Assembly (NCBI RefSeq): GCF_021165935.1
Contig: NZ_CP088953.1
Span: forward strand, 1,783,501-1,847,500
Source of the DNA: Microbulbifer elongatus
GTDB lineage: Bacteria > Pseudomonadota > Gammaproteobacteria > Pseudomonadales > Cellvibrionaceae
Length of the DNA stretch: 64,000 bases
Direction of reading: 5' to 3'
Part shown: in pieces, positions 9,803 through 35,469 of the stretch
Layout of the letters: every line of letters begins with the position of its first letter
How positions within the stretch are numbered: position 1 is the stretch's first letter
Made by a program: the position numbers and the translations under genes
Notes under the pieces: generated by a model
What the model saw: only the letters and a program-made list of their open reading frames with translations
Told to the model about the DNA's origin: nothing
Database searches by the model: none

Positions 9803-11296
9803 TCAATCTGCCGGGCGATGCGCGCCGCTGTCGGGGCGCTTGTTGCGATTCCGATTGCGTCCACCGCGATTGCGGCGCCCCCGACTCTTACTGCCGCGGG
9901 GGCCGTTGCGCGGTACGTCGCGCACCATCTGTAGACGCTGTTCTTCATCAGCCTGCTGGAAATCCGTCCACCACTGGCCGAGGCCGGCGGGGATTTCGCC
10001 GCTGTCTTCCCGCAGCAGAAGGAAATCATAGGCGGCGCGGAAGCGGGGCATTTCCATCAGTCGGAAGGCGCGCTCGCCGCCGCGGCGGGGCAGGCGGGAC
10101 TGCATATCCCAGATCTCTCGCATAGGCATGGAAAAACGCTTGGGAATGGCGGTATGCGCCAGCTGTGCGCTGGTGATCTTCTGCGCGGACTGGGCCAGCG
10201 CGGGTACTGGTGGAATACCTTTGCTTTCGAGAAATTTCTGTTCGCTGTTGACCGCAGGCCACAGCAGCGCCGCGTACAGGAATGCCGGGGTTACGCGCTG
10301 GTCCGAGCGGATGCGGGTGTCAGTGTTGCGCAGGGCCTGGCGGGTGAGGGCCAGAGCCTCCGGGTGCTCCAGCATGCGCGCGTTGTCCGGGAACAGGTGC
10401 GGCCACAGCGCGTGTTCACGCAGTAGCTCGAAGGTGCGTTCGCCGTAGCCGCTCATCAGCAGCTTCAATACCTCATCGAACAGCCGTGCCGGGGCAATAT
10501 TGCGCAGCAGCGGGGCGAGAGTGCGCAATGGCGCGGCAGTACTGGGCTCGATGTCGAAATCCAGTTTGGCCGCGAAGCGCACGGCGCGCAGCATTCGTAC
10601 CGGGTCTTCTTTATAACGGGTTTCCGGGTCGCCGATCATACGGATCAGGCGCTGTTCGATATCCTGGATACCGCCGGTGTAATCGTGGATCTCAAACCCA
10701 TTTGTGGTGTAGTACAGCGCGTTGACGGTGAAGTCCCGGCGCACCGCATCGCTTTCCAGGTCCCCGTACACATTATCCCGTAGCAGCATGCCGTGTTCGG
10801 ACTGCTGTGCTTCATGGGCTTCGCCATCGCTGTGATGGCCACGGAAGGTGGTTACTTCAATGACCTCGCGGCCGATGCGCGCATGCAGAATCCGGAAGCG
10901 GCGGCCGACGATCCGGGCCCCGCGAAACAATTGCTTGGCCTGCTCCGGTGTGGCGTCTGTGGCCACGTCGAAATCTTTCGGGTGGCCGCCCAGCAGCAGA
11001 TCGCGTACGCCACCGCCCACGATGTAGGCCTCAAAACCCGCTTCCTGCAGACGCTTCATGACGGTCAGCGCCGCGCGGCTGACATCCCGTCGTGACAGGC
11101 AGTGATCACTGCGGGGGACCACGGTGCGGGAATGGCTGGAAGGTGATGTGGGTTTGCGGTTGGGGCGCGGGGGGCGGGAGTCGGAAGAAGGAGACTGACC
11201 GGAATCGGATTGGCCCGAGTCTCCATGGGCTTCGCCTGCGGAGGCTTTGGACTTGTTGTGCCAGCGCTTGATGCTGCTGATCAGGGTGTTGAACAT
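9803..11296 (-). CDS. pcnB: Poly(A) polymerase I
   Basis: PcnB adds 3' poly(A) tails to RNAs and promotes their decay. The 497-residue protein contains the class II nucleotidyltransferase core: VGGGVRDLLLGGHPKDFDVATDA (GG and DxD motif, about residues 90-112), the RRDFTVNALYY block and the RMLRAVRFAAKL helix. The C-terminus is rich in Arg/Gly/Asn, probably RNA-binding. A Ser/Pro-rich linker occupies residues 20-60. I start at the Met at 11296 (MFNTLISSIKRW); the frame stays open to 11665, but that part overlaps the putative CrcZ-like RNA and is not conserved. Location just downstream of cbrB and the RNA matches Pseudomonas. Confidence 0.93.
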   Translation of the reverse strand: MFNTLISSIKRWHNKSKASAGEAHGDSGQSDSGQSPSSDSRPPRPNRKPTSPSSHSRTVVPRSDHCLSRRDVSRAALTVMKRLQEAGFEAYIVGGGVRDLLLGGHPKDFDVATDATPEQAKQLFRGARIVGRRFRILHARIGREVIEVTTFRGHHSDGEAHEAQQSEHGMLLRDNVYGDLESDAVRRDFTVNALYYTTNGFEIHDYTGGIQDIEQRLIRMIGDPETRYKEDPVRMLRAVRFAAKLDFDIEPSTAAPLRTLAPLLRNIAPARLFDEVLKLLMSGYGERTFELLREHALWPHLFPDNARMLEHPEALALTRQALRNTDTRIRSDQRVTPAFLYAALLWPAVNSEQKFLESKGIPPVPALAQSAQKITSAQLAHTAIPKRFSMPMREIWDMQSRLPRRGGERAFRLMEMPRFRAAYDFLLLREDSGEIPAGLGQWWTDFQQADEEQRLQMVRDVPRNGPRGSKSRGRRNRGGRNRNRNKRPDSGAHRPAD

Positions 11297-11569
11297 ACGC
11301 CTATCTATATTGTCCGCGGCCCTCTGGAATGGGGCGGCTGTAATCTTTATCGGTGTACCTTCTCTCTGCCTCCCGCTCGGCGTGTGTGGCGTCGGGTGCG
11401 CGCTGGTCGAAGATACCTGAGTGGAAACCGGAGTGTTCCGCATGCGGGCTATCAGAAGCCTGGCGGCGGACGCGGTGTCGGTATGAGGGCGGATTCTATC
11501 ACATGCAGCACAATGCACAGCTGCCGGACCCACTCCTGTGGGGACCAGCATCCCATGTGCATCGATTGA

Positions 11570-11988
11570 GAAGAAAGAAAAGAAGGGAATTATTCTTATT
11601 CGGTATGAAGGCAGCGGCTTCCTTGCGCTATCAATTTGCTTTTCAGCAAACCCTCTCCCAGGCACAATCAGTCAGTTTGTCACGTGCTTGTCGTTATTTT
11701 TGTTGTCTTCTACAAATTATTGTTTTTGTTATTTCTCTTTATTCTTATTGTTTATTTTTATTATTAGCTTTGTGTGGTACCCGAAGGTAACCGTTTTTCA
11801 TTTATTTTTATTGTTGTTCTGAGCCTTATTATTGTTATTGGCTCTGTTTTGCTCCGGAATCGATCGCTTTGGCTTTTATTGTCGATCTGCCCGTTATTAT
11901 TTTTATTGTGTTGCGCCCGCTTATTGTCAGTTGTTATTAGGGCTTAAACAGTCATTTATTTTTATTCTTGGCTGTTCTTGTTGTTTGA
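11570..11988 (-). ncRNA. crcZ: Putative CrcZ-like Hfq/Crc-sequestering small RNA
   Basis: Read on the minus strand, this cbrB-pcnB intergenic stretch is extremely A-rich while flanking genes are GC-rich. It holds about ten AANAANAA-type blocks, for example AACAACAAGAAC at the predicted 5' end, AATAAAAATAATAAC, AATAACAATAATAAG, AACAACAATAAAAATAAA and AATAACAAAAACAATAAT. They are separated by small stems: GAGCC-N14-GGCTC with the A-rich block in the loop (11821-11844), a C(UUCG)G-capped stem (11776-11792), and TTTGCT-GAAA-AGCAAA (11635-11650). Known: Pseudomonas CrcZ (about 400 nt) lies in this same slot and titrates Hfq/Crc through such CA motifs. A sigma-54 promoter ends about 10 bases before the predicted 5' end. 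The 3' end is uncertain: I stop in a pyrimidine tract (11568-11587) and see no clean terminator. Confidence 0.72.
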
Positions 11989-12087: not shown

Positions 12088-12181
12088 CGTTACACATGGT
12101 GCGCTTGTTGTTACTTGTCTGCGGTGGGGGGTAACACTTTCAGTTGTTACCAATTTTGCGGGGTGTTACCGCTCCGTTACA
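12088..12181. promoter_or_regulatory. Cluster of TGTTAC half-sites, candidate CbrB upstream activating sequence
   Basis: Six copies of (T/C)GTTAC or its complement lie within 94 bases: 12088-12094, 12109-12114, 12131-12136 (as GTAACA), 12145-12150, 12164-12169 and 12175-12181. The pair TGTTAC-N16-GTAACA (12109-12136) forms an inverted repeat. The cluster begins about 75 bases upstream of the sigma-54 promoter, typical enhancer distance. From memory, Pseudomonas CbrB recognises TGTTAC/GTAACA-type palindromes; assignment to CbrB here is an inference. Confidence 0.6.
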
Positions 12182-12255: not shown

Positions 12256-12286
12256 AAAAAAGCCCGGGCTGGCAGGCCCGGGCTTT
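12256..12286 (-). terminator. Rho-independent terminator after cbrB
   Basis: A perfect 11-bp stem (AAAGCCCGGGC / GCCCGGGCTTT) with a six-base loop is followed on the minus strand by six T residues. It lies 25 bases past the cbrB stop. It separates cbrB transcription from the independently promoted CrcZ-like RNA. Confidence 0.9.
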
Positions 12287-13873: not shown

Positions 13874-16867
13874 TCACGCCGGTAGCAGTGGTATCTGCAC
13901 GATAAAGCGCGCCCCGCGGCCTGTCTCCGGATGGGCCGGGCTGACCAGCTCCAGCTGTCCCCCGTGCTCTTCCACGATGCTGTACACCATAGCCAGGCCC
14001 AGTCCGGTTCCCTCACCTGGTTCCTTGGTGGTAAAGAAAGGTTCGAGGATGCGTTCCCGGTGCGCCGGGGAGATACCCGGGCCGTTGTCGGTGACCGCAA
14101 TACAGGCGAGCCCGGTGCGGGTATACCCTTCTACCTCAATATGCCCGCCGTCCGGGCTGGCATCGCGGGCGTTGCTCAGCAGGTTGATGAAGACCTGGAT
14201 CAGGCGCTGATTATCCCCCAGGCCTATCAAGCCTTCGGGCACCTGGTTGGCGAAGGTCACCTCGGTTTTATCCCGCTGTAGAGACAGCAGTTGCACCGCC
14301 TCCTCCACGCAGGCGCGCATATCCACCGGGGCCTTTTCCGTTTCCTGGTTGCCGCTGTGAGAGAAGCTCACCAGGGAGTGCACAATGCGGCTGATCCGCT
14401 GGGTCTGGCTCAGAATCTGGTCTGCGGTCTCCAGCACTTCTGGATTGTCGGAATCGAACTGGAGATTCTGTGCCAGGCAGGCAATCCCGGTAACCGGGTT
14501 GCCGACTTCGTGCGCAACCCCAGCTGCGAGGCGGCCCACCGATGCCAGCCGCTCACTGTGCATCAACTCCTGCTCCAGAAGTTGCGTTTCAGTAATGTCT
14601 TCCACCAGCAGCATCTGCCCGTCACCGCGGTTGTCTCGGCTGCGGCTTTCTTTGCTGCGATTGCTGTTGTCGCGGCCGTACTTGCCAACACGCTGCTTGA
14701 GGCGTGTCTTGTGCAGGTTCAGCCAGTGGCTGGCCCCCTCGATGTCGACCTGCTGCTTGAACTGGCTGTCCTCTTCTGAGCGTGCAAACTCCGTCAACAG
14801 GTCGCGCCAGGGTGCCGGCAGGTATTCGGGCTTGGAGCCGATCACTTCGCTGGCCGTGATACCGGTGAGGTCGGCCATGGCGTAGTTCCACAGTAATATC
14901 TCGCCATCGCGGCCGAGAGAGCAGGCGGCCATGGGCAGTTCTTCCAGCATCTGCCGGTGGTACAGGCGCAGGTTGTTGAGCTCTGCCGCGAGGCCGGTGA
15001 GCTGATTTTTGTAGCGGCTGAGGCGGGTCTCGATCAGGTTGATGTCTTTGTTAGCGGGCTGGTCGCCGGTAACAAAGGGCAGGTGCCGGTCGAGAATCTG
15101 GCCGGCCAGTACCCGTCCCAGCAGGCCGGATAAATTGGCTTCCAGTCGGTCGCGCAACTGGCGCAGGGCGTAAGGGCGTCGCTCTTCTTCGGTCAGATTC
15201 AGCTGGCGCAGAGCGCGGCCAACCTCCTGGCTGGCGGTGGCGGCGCCAAGGCTTTCGGAAAGCCGCAGGCGGAATTCCGCGGCGGTCTGAACATCCAGTT
15301 CCAGACGCAGGGCCTGGCTGATGGAGTCGTCGCTACACAGATCCGCGGCGTAGCGCTCCAGGCTGGAGGTACGGGTGAAAATCGACAGGCAGACAAACAG
15401 CAGAATGTTGGCCGATAGCGACAGGGTGGTGACCTGTGGCCAGATTTCCATTCCCAGGGGCACACGGTAGCCGCCGACAGTGATGCCGCTGTTGCCGACC
15501 ATGGCCGGAAACAGCAGGCCCGCGGCCCAGATCAGCATTCCGGCCAATAGCCCCGCGATAAACCCGCGGCGGTTACCCTGCGGCCAGTGAATCACGGCAA
15601 AGATACCCGGCAGAAACTGCAGCGAGGCAATAAACGCAATAATTGCCAGGTCGGAAAGTGACAGCCGGTTATTCAACAGCAGATAAAAGGCAAATCCCGC
15701 GAGGAATAGTGCCGCCACCAACGCCCGGCGCAACCAAAGCAGTTGGCGGTACATGTTGTCATCCGACTGCCAGCGGGTGCCGGGCAGCAGCCAGTGGTTC
15801 ATCACCATGGTGGCCAGTGCCAGGGTGATCATGATCAGGGCGCCGGTGGCGGCGGAAAGACCACCGATAAAGGCGAGAATCGTCAGGGTGGCCGAGCCGC
15901 TGGCGCGCGGTACTGCCAAAGTGAAATATTGCACCGGCTCGGTGACATCCAGCGCAAACCCTGCCCACATGATCGGGAAGATCGGCAGTGCCATCAGCAG
16001 CATAAACAGGGGGAAGCCCCAGCTGGCGGTGCGTAGCCCCTGGGTGGCGGGGCGCTCGGCAATACTCAGATAAAAAATGTGCGGCATGGCGACCGCGGTG
16101 GCAATAAACACCAGCAGCAGGGTGTGGGAGGAGCCCTGTTTAATGGGGGAGTAGAGTAGCTGTTGCATATCGCTGTTGTCGGCCAGCCAGCTGTCCAGCC
16201 CATCCAGTCCACCGAACACCCCATATACCGCGTAGAGCCCCACCGCCAGCAGGGCGACCAGTTTGACCACCGACTCCAGCGCCATGGCGCTGGCGAGGCC
16301 GGCGCGGCGTTTGCGCGAGGCGCCGTAGGTGCTGGTGAATACGGCGAGCAATACGCAGTAGAAAAAGGCGATGAGGTCTTTGCTGGTGACGCCCGTGTCC
16401 GGCAGGGCCAGGGCGGCGACGTTGTCCCGGGACAGCAGTGCGAGGGTTTCCGCAACGGCCTGAATCTGCAGGGCGATCAGTGGTAGCAACCCAAGCAGCA
16501 TAAACAGGGTGGCGAGGGTGCCGGCTTCGCGGCTGTGGTAGCGGAATACCAGCAGGTCGGCGGGGGAGGTGAGCTGGTAGCGCTGCGCGAGTTTTGCCAG
16601 GGGTTCCAGTGCTACGGGGGCAAACAGGAACATGGCGCCAGTGCCGAGGTGGTAGGCGAGAACGCCGTACCCGTGCTGCCAGGCGAGGTCGATGATGCCG
16701 TAGTAGGTCCAGGCGCTGAGGGAAACGCCGAGGGACAGGACATAAAAAAACGGGTGGCGCACCCAGTTGGTGGGCAGCCAGCCTTTGGAGGTAGCGAAGG
16801 CGACGAAGAAGAGGGCGAAGATGTAGGCGACGCCGATCAGCGCAATATTGACGATCTCAAAGGTCAT
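13874..16867 (-). CDS. cbrA: Sensor histidine kinase CbrA with SSS-transporter-like domain
   Basis: This 997-residue membrane kinase begins with a multi-helix sodium/solute symporter (SLC5-like) domain (about 1-500), followed by a cytoplasmic linker domain, a PAS domain (about 640-720, around LPMAACSLGRDGEILLWN) and the kinase core. The H-box is AAGVAHEVGNPVTG with phospho-acceptor His786; the N box is FINLLSNARDA; the G boxes are DNGPGIS and GTGLGLAMVYS. Known: Pseudomonas CbrA has the same SSS fusion, transports histidine and signals to CbrB. Here it overlaps the cbrX-like gene upstream by 11 bases and precedes cbrB by 167 bases. Confidence 0.94.
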   Translation of the reverse strand: MTFEIVNIALIGVAYIFALFFVAFATSKGWLPTNWVRHPFFYVLSLGVSLSAWTYYGIIDLAWQHGYGVLAYHLGTGAMFLFAPVALEPLAKLAQRYQLTSPADLLVFRYHSREAGTLATLFMLLGLLPLIALQIQAVAETLALLSRDNVAALALPDTGVTSKDLIAFFYCVLLAVFTSTYGASRKRRAGLASAMALESVVKLVALLAVGLYAVYGVFGGLDGLDSWLADNSDMQQLLYSPIKQGSSHTLLLVFIATAVAMPHIFYLSIAERPATQGLRTASWGFPLFMLLMALPIFPIMWAGFALDVTEPVQYFTLAVPRASGSATLTILAFIGGLSAATGALIMITLALATMVMNHWLLPGTRWQSDDNMYRQLLWLRRALVAALFLAGFAFYLLLNNRLSLSDLAIIAFIASLQFLPGIFAVIHWPQGNRRGFIAGLLAGMLIWAAGLLFPAMVGNSGITVGGYRVPLGMEIWPQVTTLSLSANILLFVCLSIFTRTSSLERYAADLCSDDSISQALRLELDVQTAAEFRLRLSESLGAATASQEVGRALRQLNLTEEERRPYALRQLRDRLEANLSGLLGRVLAGQILDRHLPFVTGDQPANKDINLIETRLSRYKNQLTGLAAELNNLRLYHRQMLEELPMAACSLGRDGEILLWNYAMADLTGITASEVIGSKPEYLPAPWRDLLTEFARSEEDSQFKQQVDIEGASHWLNLHKTRLKQRVGKYGRDNSNRSKESRSRDNRGDGQMLLVEDITETQLLEQELMHSERLASVGRLAAGVAHEVGNPVTGIACLAQNLQFDSDNPEVLETADQILSQTQRISRIVHSLVSFSHSGNQETEKAPVDMRACVEEAVQLLSLQRDKTEVTFANQVPEGLIGLGDNQRLIQVFINLLSNARDASPDGGHIEVEGYTRTGLACIAVTDNGPGISPAHRERILEPFFTTKEPGEGTGLGLAMVYSIVEEHGGQLELVSPAHPETGRGARFIVQIPLLPA

Positions 16868-35158: not shown

Positions 35159-35221
35159 GGCTCTCTCGTACATATCGGTGAGAGACCCGGAGCGCGACGT
35201 GAAGTGGGGAGCTGGAGGACT

Positions 35222-35319
35222 ACCTATTCCTACGCCGGTATTAGCCGGATCAGGTTCAAGGGTTTCCTGCAGAATCGTAAAAGATCCCGCAGCATCTCAG
35301 GCTTTCGCCACCCCTTAGG
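35222..35319 (-). promoter_or_regulatory. TPP (THI-box) riboswitch
   Basis: On the minus strand the sequence contains the universally conserved THI elements: GGGGUGGCGAAAGCCUGAGA at the 5' side, then ACCCUUGAACCUGAUCCGG, then UAAUACCGGCGUAGGAA at the 3' side. The P1 arm closes with CCUA/UAGG. It lies about 65 bases upstream of the TonB-dependent receptor start and should shut down the four-gene thiamine uptake operon when TPP is abundant. No T-run hairpin was seen between it and the start, so translational control is likelier. Confidence 0.96.
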
Positions 35320-35469
35320 TTGTGCAGTAGGTTTTGCGGGCGCGATCCTATCAGATAAGCGAAGTGGCAGGAACTGTGGTGTGCGTGGCGAACAGGTTCG
35401 CTACGATGGTCATATCTGAACCCTCCTTTGCGCCAGCTTGCGCAAGGCCAAACGCGTACAGGAGTTGAT

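Follow-up and report, generated by a model that had tools for sequence, protein, structure and literature searches.

The window, meaning the whole 64,000-nucleotide stretch of DNA analyzed here, belongs to a genome of 4.2 Mb and carries on its minus strand, in this order, cbrA, cbrB, a gap of 1015 bases and pcnB. The product of cbrA has an SLC5-like N-terminal part, which we take to be a CbrA trait, and the cbrB product has NCBIfam matches only to related regulators, below their cut-offs. The gap is flanked by cbrB and pcnB both here and in each of the 34 relatives whose gap was fetched for comparison, which is the location of CrcZ. The gap contains a predicted CrcZ-like RNA, and the features of the locus are as follows.

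13874..16867, minus strand: cbrA, histidine kinase, 997 aa
12312..13706, minus strand: cbrB, NtrC-type response regulator, 464 aa, named from synteny with cbrA
12259..12286, minus strand: terminator-like hairpin directly after cbrB and ahead of the CbrB sites
12164..12169, minus strand: additional putative GTAACA subsite, by sequence match
12145..12150, minus strand: additional putative GTAACA subsite, by sequence match
12131..12136, minus strand: putative CbrB subsite F1, TGTTAC, 123 nt upstream of the sigma-54 site
12109..12114, minus strand: putative CbrB subsite R1, GTAACA, 101 nt upstream of the sigma-54 site
12013-11998, minus strand: predicted sigma-54 promoter TGGCACGCTATCTGCT, TGGCAC-N6-TGCT; every one of the 35 genus gaps, counting that of the window, has such a site
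11571..11987, minus strand: predicted CrcZ-like RNA, about 417 nt, 5' end placed from sigma-54 geometry
about 11571, minus strand: probable 3' end of the CrcZ-like RNA, placed where conservation ends at a pyrimidine tract
11590..11985, minus strand: A-rich array, 11 runs of AANAANAA or longer by run count
11985-11975, 11969-11956, 11938-11931, 11907-11894, 11839-11826, 11818-11802, minus strand: AANAANAA runs 1-6
11765-11752, 11749-11739, 11733-11717, 11704-11694, 11600-11590, minus strand: AANAANAA runs 7-11
11947..11976, minus strand: hairpin 1 (AACAG/CUGUU), hand-drawn, A-rich run in the loop, one pair changed on both sides
11915..11943, minus strand: hairpin 2 (GCCC/GGGC), hand-drawn, A-rich run in the loop, no paired change
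11862..11887, minus strand: hairpin 3 (GAUCG/CGAUC), two pairs changed on both sides in relatives; its loop is A-rich without a AANAANAA run
11821..11844, minus strand: hairpin 4 (GAGCC/GGCUC), A-rich run in the loop, only in the long-form clade, 57% of cells paired
11584..11691, minus strand: near-invariant 3' domain, model R1
11634..11651, minus strand: 3'-domain hairpin GUUUGCU/AGCAAAU, two pairs changed on both sides
11605..11628, minus strand: 24-nt block GCGCAAGGAAGCCGCTGCCTTCAT, almost unchanged throughout the genus
11493..11498, minus strand: TAGAAT, a possible -10 box of pcnB, seen in many relatives too
9803..11296, minus strand: pcnB, start taken at ATGTTCAAC

An earlier note on this DNA had described about ten A-rich blocks on the minus strand, and counting bore this out: the minus strand of 11570-11988 holds 11 runs of AANAANAA or longer, compared to a mean of 3.4 and a maximum of 8 in dinucleotide shuffles, and none of 2000 such shuffles reached 11. 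Overlapping AANAANAA matches number 44 on the minus strand of the window, 30 of them inside 11570-11988, and seven on the plus strand, none of them inside. The array locus is 46% A and 36% GC, compared to 60% GC for the window. Genome-wide there are 31 matches to AANAANAANAANAA, nine of which (including two overlapping pairs) fall in a 253-nt stretch of the CrcZ-like locus, all on the same strand. Like CrcZ, the transcript strand carries several putative A-rich sites for the distal face of Hfq. The blocks had also been described as separated by hairpins, a description that fails for three of the 11 runs, which lie inside the loops of hand-drawn hairpins 1, 2 and 4. The further claim that this RNA has more A-rich sites than the classical one holds here (11 versus 5-6) but not genus-wide, as the 34 genus RNAs counted range from 6 to 13 runs (mean 9.0; L059 was excluded, its 3' anchor being absent). 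The reference set consisted of 16 Rfam CrcZ matches from the Pseudomonas family (f20), one per genome from 25 over-cutoff matches, and contained 5-6 runs each (mean 5.8). This measure is calibrated by PAO1 CrcZ, for which the available text of PMC4063720 states six A-rich stretches.

The array had been said to begin just past a sigma-54 promoter; the site identified predicts transcription to start about 12 nt downstream, near 11987, in agreement with that placement. A sigma-54 promoter, as expected for CrcZ, is present in the window and in the genus gaps, and upstream of it lie CbrB subsites that match exactly the motifs TGTTAC and GTAACA named in a P. putida study (PMC6296734, available text). 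The same text describes CbrB binding as relaxed, with no strict consensus derivable. Across the 35 genus gaps we counted 105 such subsites versus 4.5 expected from mononucleotide shuffling, with at least two in every gap and near-fixed positions at about -123 and -101. The 54 other gaps, which include one duplicate (L130 = L223) and from which gaps with a sigma-54 score below 18 had been dropped, held 144 subsites versus 6.9 expected, with at least two in 49 of them. For both counts, the region examined extended at most 300 nt upstream from the sigma-54 site.

Our genus sample comprised 36 same-genus genomes, with the gap fetched from 34 (G007 and G025 were left out). A sigma-54 site followed by a sense A-array was found in all 35 genus gaps, counting the window. 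Comparing the cbrB-pcnB gap across relatives, as the earlier note had suggested, showed the same layout in 34 of 34 fetched genomes.

To describe structure we used alignment A2, containing 29 of the 35 genus gap sequences, in which the array shows insertions and deletions between sequences. A structure drawn by hand on the window sequence had 91.7% of its cells paired compared to 23-49% for slid structures, a measure that favors a drawing made from one of the aligned sequences. Seven of its 29 pairs were changed on both sides, a number reached by 8 of 500 shuffles, and 24 cells carried paired changes versus 7.4 in shuffles, reached by none of 500; on one of the five measures, further pair types, the structure was not above shuffles (14 versus a shuffled mean of 15.7). 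The RNAalifold consensus has 33 pairs, four of them changed on both sides, and it agrees with the hand drawing on hairpin 3 and the 3' hairpin; hairpins 1 and 4 are absent from it, and the GGGC of hairpin 2 is instead paired with the 3' domain. Of the predicted structures, the two on which both approaches agree, hairpin 3 and the hairpin of the 3' domain, have the best support. The single-sequence fold of the CrcZ-like RNA was not more stable than shuffles (z -1.19), which suits a sponge and provides no evidence for structure.

Within the genus the 3' domain has a mean identity of 90% in alignment A3 (24 of 34 sequences). Model R1, built on this domain, has a single match in each of 36 of 37 genus genomes, the miss being G007, an assembly that is 80% complete, and no match in 21 genomes outside the genus. 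The claim that sequence outside the motifs is not conserved therefore stands mostly for the comparison with Pseudomonas and fails within the genus, where the 3' domain is nearly invariant. A short open reading frame in the 3' domain was considered and set aside, as L065 has a change that would remove its TTG but leaves the hairpin paired.

A CrcZ covariance model search, proposed as a check by the earlier note, missed the locus. The Rfam model RF01675, described as a Pseudomonas sRNA, gave no gathering-level match in the window and no match at E<=0.001 in the whole genome, and the window RNA lies below its gathering score; the same-slot RNAs of many other families likewise score below it. At a lax threshold the search returned only sub-threshold CrcZ fragments, all A-rich pieces, which we did not retain. 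Among 390 genomes of the order, RF01675 matched 71 at E<=0.001 and 19 over the cutoff (16 from f20 and 3 from f2). It is these 71 genomes that indicate that the search works, not the 14 control genomes, none of which had a match. By position and layout, then, the window RNA is a putative CrcZ orthologue and not a family member as Rfam defines it.

Some primary sequence may be shared with Pseudomonas CrcZ. When the Pseudomonas element GCTAACTGATTCTTTTGGAGAGG is aligned to CTGACTGATTGTGCCTGGGAGAGG of the window, none of 100 shuffles reaches the score, the portion apparently retained being AACTGA...GGAGAGG. This first element scored beyond all 100 shuffles in four of the five genus sequences printed (WIN, L033, L045 and L062), and in the fifth, L055, its score was reached by 8 of 100. 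Outside the genus it was beyond all shuffles in three of nine same-family loci (L225, L227 and L228) and in 10 of 52 loci of other families. L225, L227 and L228 are same-family intermediates, which model R1 matches at E 0.014 (L225) and at only 0.31 (L227 and L228), these E-values being rough. The long-range 3' partner element of Pseudomonas, CCAAAGCAATCCGTTTGC, was not found in any of the five genus representatives examined. The case for orthology draws mainly on position, promoter, CbrB sites and array.

We then surveyed the order, where CbrA matches at E<=1e-120 occur in 273 of 390 genomes. A full unit was defined as a CbrB subsite at most 190 nt upstream, a sigma-54 site and sense A-runs, with at least two sense runs in 300 nt that outnumber antisense runs. 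Of 64 loci read outside the genus, not counting the duplicate L130, 52 have such a unit after cbrB, as do 26 of the 31 numbered families of the order; the families without it are f8, f10, f17, f27 and f43, and the f27 locus and one f2 locus (L070) are interrupted by a contig end. Families f20 and f2, the source of the over-cutoff Rfam matches, both have the full unit. Named loci with the unit are those of Gilvimarinus gilvus, G. agarilyticus (L130 = L223, from genome G092, in the same family as the window genome), Pseudomonas fildesensis, Dasania and Vreelandella lutescens, and no unit was found at the loci of Alloalcanivorax balearicus, 42_54_T18 bacterium and a Pseudomonadaceae MAG.

The survey also revealed variation in the arrangement of the unit. 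Behind cbrB, 11 loci (L230, L231, L232, L251, L234, L243, L252, L238, L126, L067 and L081) have two tandem CbrB-sigma-54-A-array units, and the sponge gene therefore appears to have undergone local duplication in several families. The RNA of Gilvimarinus and related genera (L222, L223, L224, L226 and L122) consists almost purely of A-rich modules, with 10-12 runs in 300 nt and few hairpins visible by eye. A weak Rfam CrcZ match (E 2.6e-11) lies at G043:C154:54748-54996 in an f8 genome, on a contig other than that of cbrB; because the stretch downstream of cbrB has no unit there, the RNA may have moved elsewhere in this genome.

Both presumed protein partners are encoded by the window genome. 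Residues 1-77 of its Hfq are nearly identical to P. aeruginosa Hfq. A 255-aa Crc lies between rph and pyrE, neighbors that were named by eye from ORF translations, and the order rph-crc-pyrE is the same in Pseudomonas. As expected of a Crc orthologue, its best PDB match is P. aeruginosa Crc (4jg3, E 1.4e-75). Crc is not confined to CbrA carriers, since a match at E<=1e-10 was found in 11 of 20 genomes without CbrA as well as in 36 of 38 with it. At E<=1e-30, a threshold chosen after the results were seen, Crc was matched for 46 of 48 loci with the unit versus 3 of 7 uncut loci without it (Fisher p 0.0014, which is optimistic because the genomes are related). Crc and the sponge unit tend to occur together. 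Four loci, L247, L261 (f43), L240 (f28) and L066 (f17), have neither the unit nor a Crc match at E<=1e-30, and a joint loss of the two is possible there. The available text of PMC9788540 states that Alcanivorax has no Crc homologue; the Alloalcanivorax slot, independent of the co-occurrence counts above, has no unit.

The position, the sigma-54 promoter, the CbrB subsites, the conserved sense A-array and a genome that encodes both Hfq and Crc together support the CrcZ homologue that the earlier note had proposed, and we consider it very probable from these sequence features that the locus encodes a CrcZ orthologue, driven by CbrB and RpoN, that sequesters Hfq(-Crc). CbrA/CbrB with RpoN would turn on the RNA of about 420 nt when the preferred carbon source is scarce, its A-rich sites would bind Hfq at the distal face along with Crc, and catabolic mRNAs would thereby be freed from translational repression. 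By analogy, since P. aeruginosa CrcZ titrates Hfq via distal-face A-rich motifs (PMC4063720, available text), the RNA should sequester Hfq(-Crc) while CbrB is active.

A-rich sites address the distal face of Hfq, and two loci with the unit (G051 and G287) are without a Crc match at E<=1e-30, as would be expected of an Hfq sponge in which Crc has no role and which targets the general Hfq pool instead of catabolite repression. We regard this as unlikely, as the window genome has Crc, as do 46 of the 48 unit loci, and control by CbrB points to carbon supply. Less likely again is that the stretch is a sigma-54-driven 5' leader of pcnB and not a separate RNA: pcnB does lie downstream in the same direction, and a search of the window for a canonical terminator ahead of pcnB and after the array found none, but conservation drops at the pyrimidine tract near 11571, about 275 nt before pcnB, and TAGAAT recurs upstream of pcnB. 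Also against a leader, in the Gilvimarinus locus L223 the array is directly followed by a terminator-like hairpin and a T-rich tail, although terminator-like sites number 8 in this locus versus 5.1 in shuffles. Open reading frames do exist (a plus-strand frame at 11353-11790 and a possible N-terminal extension of pcnB from 11665), but a coding function can be set aside almost entirely: genus clades differ by 2 nt in length inside the frame, changes in the hairpins preserve pairing, the A-array has gained and lost nucleotides, and pcnB homology starts at 11296.

Within the favored reading of a CrcZ orthologue, we tentatively raise the idea, more doubtful than not, that the RNA is bifunctional, combining an Hfq/Crc sponge, whose size in sites and tandem units would have been repeatedly adjusted across the order, with a separate 3' module that pairs with mRNA or recruits another protein. 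If so, carbon starvation would also trigger a second, specific regulation.

We also looked for candidate targets among the other A-rich matches of the genome, reading twenty stretches, several of which lie at start codons. An MFS_2 sugar transporter has an A-rich run beside its ribosome-binding site, and 6 of 11 homologous loci carry AANAANAA at most 45 nt upstream of the presumed ATG: the three closest orthologues (own genome included) and three more distant homologues. This counts in favor of the CrcZ reading. As background, AANAANAA lies near the start of 3 of 42 long window ORFs, one of them inside the CrcZ-like RNA, with starts assigned mechanically. For a dehydratase, five orthologues (L264-L268, own genome included) each have at least one AANAANAA within 45 nt of the start. 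This site is equivocal as an Hfq/Crc target because its 14-nt A-rich run is seen in this genome only and lysine or asparagine codons could explain the short runs. L206, which has an A-rich stretch around 980-1050 where no ORF was listed, was tried as a second sponge RNA and rejected, as model R1 had no match there at E<=1. Separately, the window contains a TPP riboswitch at 35210-35325 on the minus strand (64.4 bits).

The available text of a 2022 review (PMC8871633) confines CbrAB to Pseudomonas and Azotobacter and names these as the only genera in which the order cbrA-cbrB-crcZ has been described, and the CbrAB-CrcZ-Hfq/Crc circuit is described as exclusive to them there and in the available text of PMC6296734. 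Our search of the open literature, with subscription papers mostly outside it, found no paper presenting CrcZ outside these two genera, which is not proof of absence. In the available portions of PMC9049629 and PMC8312277, CrcZ comes up only in connection with Pseudomonas or in references, and that of PMC5073097 has cbrA and cbrB among the transcripts of a marine community and does not treat the question of CrcZ hosts. The parts of the circuit, CbrB sites included, occur in most of the families sampled from the order, and the named cases include Gilvimarinus, Dasania and Vreelandella, so that catabolite repression by an RNA sponge becomes testable in many organisms. The results also indicate that when the function of an RNA family depends on short repeats, many of its members can escape an Rfam model.

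The closest known system is CrcZ of Pseudomonas and Azotobacter (RF01675). The window RNA resembles it in its slot after cbrB and before pcnB, in a sigma-54 promoter whose CbrB subsites lie at corresponding positions (L236, L237, L069 and L124), in a predicted length of about 400 nt, in several (A-A-N)n sites and possibly in part of the AACTGA...GGAGAGG element. It differs in scoring below the Rfam threshold and in having 11 sites compared to the six stated for PAO1 CrcZ in the available text of PMC4063720. It differs further in that the five genus representatives have no match to the Pseudomonas 3' partner element, whereas the genus RNA has its own near-invariant 3' domain, once per genome. 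Judged by sequence, what would be new relative to known CrcZ are the larger number of sites, the near-invariant 3' domain and the tandem copies in other families.

Pseudomonas has further CbrB-driven Hfq/Crc decoys besides CrcZ, namely CrcY and CrcX. Both are named in the available texts of PMC6296734 and PMC8871633. In contrast to these, the search of the genus of the window for the 3' domain gave no second copy, and the arrangement of tandem units behind cbrB, as seen in other families, is a different one. RsmY/RsmZ and CsrB are multi-site protein sponge RNAs that present their motifs in hairpin loops. CrcZ is compared with them in the available text of PMC4063720. They use GGA motifs to bind RsmA/CsrA, and are unrelated to the window RNA in both protein and sequence, but they share with it the proposed design of a sponge RNA with many sites and with motifs in hairpin loops.
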